A stretch of DNA of 64,000 nt from Diaminobutyricimonas sp. LJ205 (lineage in GTDB: Bacteria > Actinomycetota > Actinomycetes > Actinomycetales > Microbacteriaceae). The notes below the pieces were generated by a model, which had not been told where the DNA came from, did no database searches, and saw nothing but the letters and a program-made list of their open reading frames with translations. A program made the translations under genes and the position numbers. The stretch lies in the NCBI RefSeq assembly GCF_009755725.1, contig NZ_CP046619.1:1054001-1118000 (forward strand), read 5' to 3'. This document shows, in pieces, positions 51,256-61,093 of this stretch (its first letter is position 1; each line of letters opens with the position of its first letter).

Positions 51256-51271
51256 TCGAACAATTGTTCGA
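51256..51271. promoter_or_regulatory. LexA (SOS) box of recA
   Basis: TCGAAC-AATT-GTTCGA is an exact match to the actinobacterial SOS consensus TCGAAC-N4-GTTCGA. TAGTCT at 51279-51284 would be the -10, placing the box over the -35 position, so LexA would block RNA polymerase directly. The recA start is 225 bases further on, leaving a leader of about 205 bases. Confidence 0.9.
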
Positions 51272-51496: not shown

Positions 51497-52606
<1,110 letters not shown>

Positions 52607-59832: not shown

Positions 59833-60504
59833 TCAGATCGTGCGCAGGACCGCCACGACCTTGCCGAGCACCTCGGCGAAATCACCCAGGATCGGTTCGA
59901 AGTTCGAGTTGCGGGGGAGCAGCCAGGTATGCCCGTCACGCTGACGGAACACCTTGACCGTAGCCTCGGAGTCCAGCATCGCAGCGACGATGTCACCGTT
60001 CTCCGCGGTCTTCTGCTGTCGAACGACAACCCAGTCGCCGTCGCAGATGGCGGCGTCGATCATCGAGTCGCCAACGACCTTGAGGATGAACAGGTCGCCC
60101 TTGCCGACCAGCTGCCGAGGCAGCGGGAAGACCTCTTCGATCTGCTGCTCGGCGGTGATCGGGATGCCAGCGGCAATACGTCCGACCATCGGAACCATCG
60201 CCGCGTCGCCCACCGGTGCGGATGTCTCGGACGAATCCTCGATCGCGGGGAGGTCGATCAGGATCTCGAGCGCCCGGGGGCGGTTCGGGTCGCGCCGCAG
60301 GTATCCGCTGAGCTCAAGCTGGTTCAGCTGATGCGTGACGCTCGACAACGAGGACAGGCCAACTGCGTCACCGATCTCGCGCATGCTCGGCGGATAGCCG
60401 CGCTGGGAGACCGAGCGCTGGATCACATCAAGGATCGCGAGCTGCTTCTCGCTCAGGTTCTTCCGGCGCCGTGTGCGGCGCTCGGGCTCAGCCTTCTCGT
60501 CCAT
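59833..60504 (-). CDS. lexA: LexA SOS repressor
   Basis: This 223-residue repressor has a winged-helix DNA-binding domain (about 18-80; [21 protein letters not shown]), the self-cleavage site A112-G113 in [10 protein letters not shown], the catalytic S147 in GDSMID and K184 in TVKVFRQ. ATG at 60504 has GGAGGGGAGACCG upstream. It is divergent from a LysM gene, and LexA boxes lie at 60601-60616 and 60665-60680, so it should regulate both itself and its neighbour. Confidence 0.98.
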
Positions 60505-60600
60505 CGGTCTCCCCTCCGCACGGCCATCGACCTGCAATGTCGGTGGTCCCTGATTGTCTGTCTCCAGACACTCGAAACTGTATCCACAAACACCGTGGAA

Positions 60601-60616
60601 ACAAACATGCATTCGA
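60601..60616. promoter_or_regulatory. Candidate LexA box for lexA
   Basis: On the minus strand this reads TCGAAT-GCAT-GTTTGT, 9 of 12 matches to TCGAAC-N4-GTTCGA. TTGTTT followed 16 bases later by TACAGT could be the lexA promoter, with the box over its -35. Confidence 0.6.
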
Positions 60617-60647
60617 GAGTGTCGTGGCATTAGGGGCAGATTGTCCC

Positions 60648-60677
60648 TTGACGCCGCGATTCTTTCGAATGTATGTT
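60648..60677 (+). promoter_or_regulatory. Promoter of the LysM gene
   Basis: TTGACG (60648-60653) and TATGTT (60672-60677) are 18 bases apart, a good vegetative promoter. The LexA box at 60665-60680 covers its -10. Confidence 0.65.
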
Positions 60678-60680
60678 CGG
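60665..60680. promoter_or_regulatory. Candidate LexA box for the LysM gene
   Basis: TCGAAT-GTAT-GTTCGG matches 10 of 12 consensus positions and overlaps the -10 of the LysM promoter. Confidence 0.75.
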
Positions 60681-60748
60681 AACACAGCTTCGCATCCGGT
60701 GGCTCCCGGCCGAGCACCGGATGCGAAACCCTCAAGGAGGTAATACTC

Positions 60749-61093
60749 ATGAGCACCATCACCCTGGCCCCTGCTCCCGTCCGCACCCGGCTGCGCCTCA
60801 CCCGCCGCGGCCGCATCGTGATCACCGGTCTCGTCTCCCTGCCGCTCGTGCTCGGCGTGCTCTTCACCTCGCTCAACGGCGGGGGAGCAACCGCAACCTC
60901 GGACCGCAGCGCCGCGTCCTTCGAGTACGTCACCATCCAGGCCGGCGAATCGCTGTGGGGCCTCGCCGAGTCGATCGCGCCCGACGCCGACCCGCGGGAC
61001 GTCATCTCCGACATCCTCTCGCTCAACCAGGTGAGCACCGCCGACGTGCACCCGGGGCTGCGCCTCGCGCTGCCGTCCGCCTACAGTCACTGA
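60749..61093 (+). CDS. LysM domain protein divergent from lexA (SOS cell-division inhibitor candidate)
   Basis: This 114-residue protein has a basic N-terminus, one membrane span (about 22-42) and an extracellular LysM domain (about 59-109; [19 protein letters not shown], then [26 protein letters not shown]). Its position divergent from lexA matches the SOS-induced division inhibitors Rv2719c/ChiZ of Mycobacterium and DivS of Corynebacterium, and YneA of Bacillus. AAGGAGGTAATACTC precedes the ATG. It probably pauses division when DNA is damaged. Confidence 0.85.

Follow-up and report, generated by a model that had tools for sequence, protein, structure and literature searches.

A predicted SOS-controlled divergent promoter of lexA and a LysM protein gene, with a conserved leader stem-loop, in Microbacteriaceae

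The region between lexA and a divergent gene for a small LysM protein is read here as an SOS-controlled divergent promoter, in which the LysM protein is YneA/DivS/ChiZ-like and its mRNA carries a conserved leader stem-loop; from the sequence comparisons the probability of this reading is put at about 0.7. The region lies in a window of 64,000 nucleotides (the whole stretch of DNA that was analysed) from a 3.22 Mb genome of the family Microbacteriaceae. LexA bound to the LysM-proximal box would cover the -10 hexamer and block the LysM promoter, and LexA bound to the lexA-proximal box would cover the -35 hexamer and block lexA. Upon DNA damage LexA would be cleaved and both genes released, after which the LysM protein, judged from its relatives, would delay division. 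The LysM mRNA is predicted to begin, a few nucleotides after the predicted start, with a stem-loop whose CCGGCC loop is nearly fixed among relatives.

The closest relatives of the window lexA belong to the Microbacteriaceae (Ruicaihuangia 88%, Leifsonia 87%, Compostimonas 86%, and others), and its product has Pfam LexA_DNA_bind and Peptidase_S24 matches. The sequence GGAGGGGAG stands directly upstream of the lexA ATG. lexA starts at 60504 on the minus strand and the LysM gene at 60749 on the plus strand, with 244 bp between them. A divergent LysM gene was found at 109 of 110 lexA loci of relatives, near-copies included (99 by pattern, 10 by eye); the sequence of L061 ends too early to show the gene. 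Within the intergenic region a 33-nt imperfect inverted repeat (76%), with arms at 60604-60636 and 60645-60677, joins both LexA boxes. A short perfect palindrome, TGTCTCCAGACA at 60559-60570, occurs in the lexA leader downstream of the lexA -10. The features of the locus are collected in Table 1.

Table 1. Coordinates of the features of the lexA/LysM locus, given as positions of the window.
Feature	Position	Strand	Evidence or remark
lexA coding sequence, 223 aa	59833..60504	-	TIGR00498, 238.9 bits (cutoff 110.95)
lexA -10 TACAGT, proposed	60582-60577	-	sequence and conservation
lexA -35-like TTGTTT, proposed	60604-60599	-	overlaps LexA box; 16 nt from -10
lexA-proximal LexA box ACAAACATGCATTCGA	60601..60616	.	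9/12
LysM promoter -35 TTGACG	60648..60653	+	consensus scan
LysM-proximal LexA box TCGAATGTATGTTCGG	60665..60680	.	10/12
LysM promoter -10 TATGTT, within LexA box	60672..60677	+	consensus scan
Degenerate LexA-like site CGGAACACAGCTTCGC	60678..60693	.	8/12; overlaps LysM box; TTCG common to hairpin 5' arm
Leader stem-loop, 13-bp perfect inverted repeat (arms 60689-60701/60715-60727)	60689..60727	+	covariance model, 62.3 bits
CCGGCC hexaloop, inside TCCCGGCCGA (60704-60713)	60706..60711	+	conserved in aligned rows
LysM gene ribosome-binding site AAGGAGG	60734..60740	+	sequence
LysM gene, 114 aa	60749..61093	+	basic N-terminus, one hydrophobic segment, LysM domain

The consensus of the actinobacterial LexA operator is TCGAAC-N4-GTTCGA, and box scores are given as matches to its 12 scored positions. 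Both boxes had been reported in the initial annotation of this DNA, and the coordinates and match counts given there are exact. Dinucleotide shuffling of the 244-bp intergene (2000 shuffles) gave P 0.0095 for at least two sites of 9/12 or better, P 0.0185 for a site of 10/12 or better, and P 0.001 for the two conditions jointly. In comparisons among relatives, conservation is stronger proof of the boxes than these shuffle statistics. The LysM-side box was found at its place by pattern at 107 of 110 lexA loci, and the three loci that failed the pattern (L046, L056, L062) still have a 9-12/12 site. With place and half-sites as anchors, a lexA-side box was identified in 80 of the 101 distinct promoter cores; in the 21 others no lexA box could be anchored. 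The distance between the boxes is 64 bp in the window and 70-77 bp in 74 of the 86 relatives whose lexA box reaches 8/12 or more. Both window boxes are conserved promoter palindromes of the operator type, and the comparison supports LexA sites of actinobacterial type serving both divergent genes.

A perfect 12/12 LexA box, TCGAACAATTGTTCGA, lies at 51256-51271, some 240 bp ahead of recA, which starts at 51497, and both boxes of the lexA/LysM promoter are weaker than this one. Other 12/12 boxes occur in the same genome near 343175, 1502468 and 1508161 (L001, L006, L007) and adjoin radical-SAM, imuB-like polymerase and imuA-like genes, named by eye from translations. By their sequence these sites are likely part of the SOS regulon of this genome.

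TTGACG-18 nt-TATGTT is the only sigma-70-like site reported by the consensus scan of 60400-60850 (0.1 expected). Its -10 hexamer falls inside the LysM-proximal box, in agreement with the earlier claim that this box covers the -10 of the LysM promoter. Among 101 distinct relatives the -10 of the best LysM promoter sits at an identical offset inside the LexA box, and the promoter spacing is 17 nt in 78 and 18 nt in 23. Promoter scores of at least 9 of 12 are reached in 58 of the 101 versus 1 of 2020 random positions, the LysM-box pattern used forcing the final TT of the -10 and leaving TA and the -35 free. No lexA promoter was reported by the same scan of 60400-60850. It is placed in spite of the scan because the places of its -10 and -35 are conserved: TACAGT stands 18-19 nt past the lexA box in 44, and another TA-N3-T in 16, of the 86 distinct Microbacteriaceae promoters whose lexA box scores 8/12 or more, while TTTG, which would contain the TTG of the -35, occupies the proposed -35 place at the box end in 63 of 80 anchored boxes. 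The proposal that the lexA-proximal box covers the likely lexA -35 is thus backed by sequence and by conservation.

From the lower score of the lexA box the initial annotation had further concluded that lexA is released earlier, or is leakier, than the LysM gene. This conclusion finds no support among the relatives: the anchored lexA box outscores the LysM box in 37 distinct promoters, ties with it in 32 and falls below it in just 11 of 80. Counting best sites gave 37 higher, 34 equal and 15 lower among 86 promoters (15 more are under 8/12); here the lexA box is whichever site scores best within a 34-bp range, a choice biased towards the lexA side, and the result agrees with the anchored count. 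Since the score order varies among relatives, having the weaker box at lexA is a local condition and no kept property, and both counts reject an induction order set by box strength as a general design. Match counts are in any case a crude proxy for affinity, and the family comparison means that the order of induction is not readable from match counts in one genome. A weaker lexA box could still have been selected in order that lexA be released before the LysM gene, as in the Escherichia coli pattern of an early lexA and a late division inhibitor, and the window scores (9/12 for lexA, 10/12 for LysM, both below the 12/12 of the recA box) are in line with this. Such tuning is unlikely, given that the score order is not kept and that positions 1 and 3, two of the three mismatches in the window's lexA box, lie within the proposed -35.

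Among the relatives, too, lexA-box mismatches cluster at positions 1 (68 of 80) and 3 (67 of 80), where the -35 overlaps. LysM-box mismatches are found at position 6 in 101, at position 16 in 100 and at position 11 in 73 of the 101 distinct relatives. Position 11 lies within the -10, and positions 6 and 16, the two mismatches of the window, lie outside it. Promoter hexamers inside the boxes may cause some of the box weakness; because LysM-box positions 6 and 16 lie outside the -10, the overlap accounts for a part only. Hexamers as the cause of all mismatches were rejected, since the fit is limited to lexA-box positions 1 and 3 and LysM-box position 11. The same two positions of the LysM operator deviate in nearly every relative, and several distant hairpin-less relatives carry an A at LysM-box position 16.

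Two variants of the operator arrangement were observed in the family. A Microbacterium clade of 15 rows (L064-L067, L070, L072, L074, L076, L077, L080, L083, L085, L089-L091) has no anchored lexA-side box and keeps the LysM-side box and the hairpin. Thirteen of the 15 are without any site of at least 8/12 on the lexA side, and lexA autoregulation may differ in this clade. In L032, L035, L038, L042, L060 and L092 a third LexA box (TTGAAC or TTGAAT, N4, GTTCGA) lies 16 bp upstream and abuts the LysM box. This third box is also seen in other families of the order and is absent from the window.

The inverted repeat in the LysM leader (60689-60727) had not been mentioned in the initial annotation. 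Most leaders of relatives, which were not selected by loop sequence, fold into a matching stem-loop, and several do not. The 107 loci with a pattern-defined LysM box yielded 99 distinct 62-nt leaders, of which 14 were dropped by name before alignment, plus two duplicates, leaving 83 rows. Eight of the dropped leaders have no hairpin (L015, L017, L023, L088, L094, L098, L103, L110), one is degenerate (L057), three are displaced (L027, L031, L100) and two elongated (L025, L047). As these rows were removed beforehand, the pair and loop counts describe hairpin-bearing loci.

Compensatory double changes occur in 12 of the 13 stem pairs of the 83 aligned distinct hairpins. Paired cells make up 95.2% of the alignment versus 78.3% in shuffles and 31.6-41.9% with the partner slid, and 163 cells carry double changes versus 41.3 in shuffles, cells in these pair counts not being independent events. 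G.U is found in 58 cells and A.C in 14, versus about 102 and 69 expected from independent columns. A DNA palindrome would treat G.U and A.C alike, so this bias points to a sense RNA. Judged from these substitutions, the hairpin is demonstrably under selection as a sense RNA, and it combines compensatory changes with a fixed genomic association, as is typical of structured cis-regulatory RNAs. The same repeat has the palindromic form and the place, just downstream of the predicted start site, of a DNA site for a dimeric regulator, and its TTCG is a possible LexA half-site. A DNA site in place of an RNA element is nevertheless highly improbable, as the stem varies with compensation around a nearly fixed central loop, the reverse of a half-site palindrome, and as the tolerance of G.U over A.C (58 to 14) is strand-specific.

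The degenerate LexA-like site at 60678-60693 is likewise absent from the initial annotation. The TTCG at its position is kept in 86 of the 91 distinct promoters with a hairpin and in 7 of the 9 without one. Because it is also kept where the hairpin is missing, this TTCG of the hairpin's 5' arm probably has another function besides, perhaps as one half of this degenerate site, and a role of TTCG as LexA half-site could account for the fixed place of the hairpin. The hairpin is absent from Leifsonia-type relatives and from one Herbiconiux (L015, L017, L098, L103, L023), which keep the LysM-side box and the TTCG.

The loop CCGGCC is present in 78 and the longer TCCCGGCCGA in 71 of the 83 aligned rows, and CCGGCC is kept also in a locus of 49% GC (L168). 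The 5' arm of the hairpin starts 11 nt past the -10 in 89 of 91 leaders, counted with a pattern that accepts T-T/C-C-G/T (the L099 leader failed the loop pattern); this count is less biased than the constant 5' distance among the 83 aligned rows, which is by construction, the leaders having been cut at a fixed offset. In the 74 rows for which a start was assigned, hairpin and start codon are 18 to 93 nt apart. With its 5' arm fixed to the -10 and its distance to the start codon variable, the element is tied to the 5' end and not to the ribosome site.

The median stem strength is -27.2 kcal/mol (83 rows). A strong GC-rich stem in the leader could act by attenuation or termination to curb leaky transcription of the LysM gene, and leakage of a division inhibitor would be harmful. 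This role is quite improbable, since no terminator-like site was found in 60400-60850 and none of the 83 leaders has at least 5 T in an 8-nt window past the stem; without such a U-tract the hairpin is no ordinary intrinsic terminator. Folding with and without the hairpin gave no clear change in the pairing of the ribosome site. Pairing of the loop with the ribosome site was rejected as a candidate mechanism, because CUCC and GGAG offer such pairing trivially and the spacing from hairpin to start codon is not constant. The fixed 5' place, the lack of a U-tract and the small effect on the ribosome site speak for a role at the 5' end over masking or termination; the favoured options are mRNA stability, early elongation and a landing site.

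Tentatively, the hairpin may be a 5'-end element that sets the stability or translation of the LysM mRNA, probably by way of a factor that reads the loop, as the near fixity of the loop suggests a reader molecule. A 5'-end stabiliser that acts with no specific partner is possible, if doubtful: the place fixed to the 5' end, the long stem and the patchy loss would all fit, yet a stabiliser of this kind has no need for the CCGGCC loop, which is kept in 78 of 83 rows and at 49% GC. For the 5'-end element with a loop reader, a more specific and speculative form would be a post-transcriptional gate on the SOS division brake, its loop read by a trans-acting protein or a small RNA; this, too, is doubtful. 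Were such a gate real, division arrest would need a second signal in addition to the release of LexA.

Searches with a covariance model, whose E-values come from a shortened calibration, gave one place in the whole genome, the window hairpin (E 3.2e-14); its reverse strand scored E 2.4e-5 and the next best place E 0.3. The 10-mer TCCCGGCCGA occurs 59 times in the genome versus 16 times for the pattern read backwards. As the model finds a single place despite the 59 10-mers, the loop letters alone mean little. The idea of a dispersed repeat was rejected for the hairpin on the same single place. In the family, 106 of 150 Microbacteriaceae genomes have a match at E 0.05 or below. For 98 of these the best match was compared with lexA, the other eight having E above 0.008, and 94 of the 98 lie within 700 nt of lexA. 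This corresponds to 94 of 146 lexA-bearing family genomes, a lower bound on account of strict search filters, with 52 of the 146 showing no match beside lexA. In the four of the 98 genomes whose best match is not near lexA, no E is better than 6.8e-4. G087 (2.6e-5; site L186, in coding sequence) and G061 (6.9e-5) each have a second match distant from lexA, and the copy in G114 is at a contig end.

A sample of the order (248 genomes) includes 18 Microbacteriaceae, of which 16 match at E 1.6e-10 or below. The 230 genomes of other families gave 35 weak matches at E 0.05 or below, the best at 1.3e-5 and the next at 4.5e-4. The best one (G264, site L187) falls in coding sequence with no lexA near. 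Ten of the 35 come from genomes with a known place of lexA and none of these ten is near lexA; the other 25 are unplaced.

On a lexA tree of 141 rows, 29 of 140 labelled rows are without the hairpin. Its presence changes 13 times on this tree, and at least six changes are forced by well-supported branches. Hairpin-bearing rows come from many parts of the tree, which leads to the reading of an early gain with repeated loss, the hairpin being probably ancestral in Microbacteriaceae, on unrooted counts of one short protein that cannot prove direction. As it is missing from many members of the family, the hairpin is dispensable, and the natural relatives without it are ready comparisons for its role.

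Within the window, none of the Rfam 15 families scored as high as its gathering score. When the promoter was searched at E up to 10 and ten relatives at E up to 1, the Rfam matches were far below gathering scores. A match to MIR5534 (28.2 bits versus a gathering score of 79; E 0.0017) follows the imperfect repeat 60604-60677 and was treated as chance, as were matches of the promoter to CC1840, mir-976, mir-1224 and HLE (E 2.8 or worse). Among the matches listed there is no literature description of lysM-associated actinobacterial motifs, of Microbacteriaceae LexA stem-loops or of SOS-inhibitor leader control. A 2017 catalogue of candidate bacterial RNAs reportedly names motifs near lysM genes, one of them in actinobacteria. 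The hairpin is presented here as a new element, and given this catalogue an earlier description is possible. Tied to a single gene, the likely SOS division brake, it is a structured RNA with good support in a large, little-studied actinobacterial family. If it controls the mRNA, damage-induced arrest of division in Microbacteriaceae is regulated post-transcriptionally in addition to its control by LexA.

The two-box arrangement itself extends beyond the family. Of the 24 lexA loci taken from the order's other families, 18 have at least two sites of at least 10/12 within 600 nt of lexA and 5 have one; the remaining locus, cut at 67 nt, has no site. A divergent LysM gene was found by pattern in at least 13 of the 24, a spurious match in L219 being left out. 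With a similar layout in other families and with divS, chiZ and yneA known, the two-box lexA/LysM promoter is, by comparison of loci, an old and common layout and ordinary SOS biology. The other families resemble the window in this layout, often with two abutting LexA sites on the LysM side. They differ in that no RNA-model match stands beside lexA and that leaders are short, several running straight into the ribosome site.

The LysM protein has a Pfam LysM match of 21 bits, a narrow pass over the cutoff of 20.9, and an N-terminal transmembrane segment read from the sequence as its hydrophobic stretch. The NCBIfam YneA equivalog cutoff of 60 bits was not reached (38.4 bits), for which reason the protein is described as a candidate and not as a proven member of the YneA/DivS/ChiZ group. 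chiZ adjoins lexA, and the window's LysM gene likewise stands beside lexA and under a LexA box. By analogy the LysM protein is a likely SOS division inhibitor.

Known leader RNAs catalogued in Rfam 15 resemble the present element in having a hairpin with a conserved loop in the mRNA leader, and none of them matches at its gathering score. According to the available text of PMC3989709, divS, chiZ and yneA are damage-induced division inhibitors, and lexA is close by divS in Corynebacterium glutamicum and by yneA in Bacillus subtilis. YneA is described in the available text of PMC13396833 as an inhibitor with an N-terminal transmembrane segment and a C-terminal LysM domain; the word UTR is absent from that text, the one paper in which a yneA leader was looked for. 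The B. subtilis lexA-yneA pair is thus alike in its lexA-adjacent, damage-induced inhibitor with transmembrane segment and LysM domain (available text of PMC13396833 and PMC3989709), whereas the window protein falls short of the NCBIfam YneA cutoff. Mycobacterium chiZ (Rv2719c) and Corynebacterium divS are alike as damage-induced division suppressors, divS being near lexA (available text of PMC3989709). Unlike these, the window protein is short and its mRNA is predicted to begin with a conserved stem-loop, the RNA-model searches having covered this genome, 150 family genomes and the 248 genomes of the order sample.
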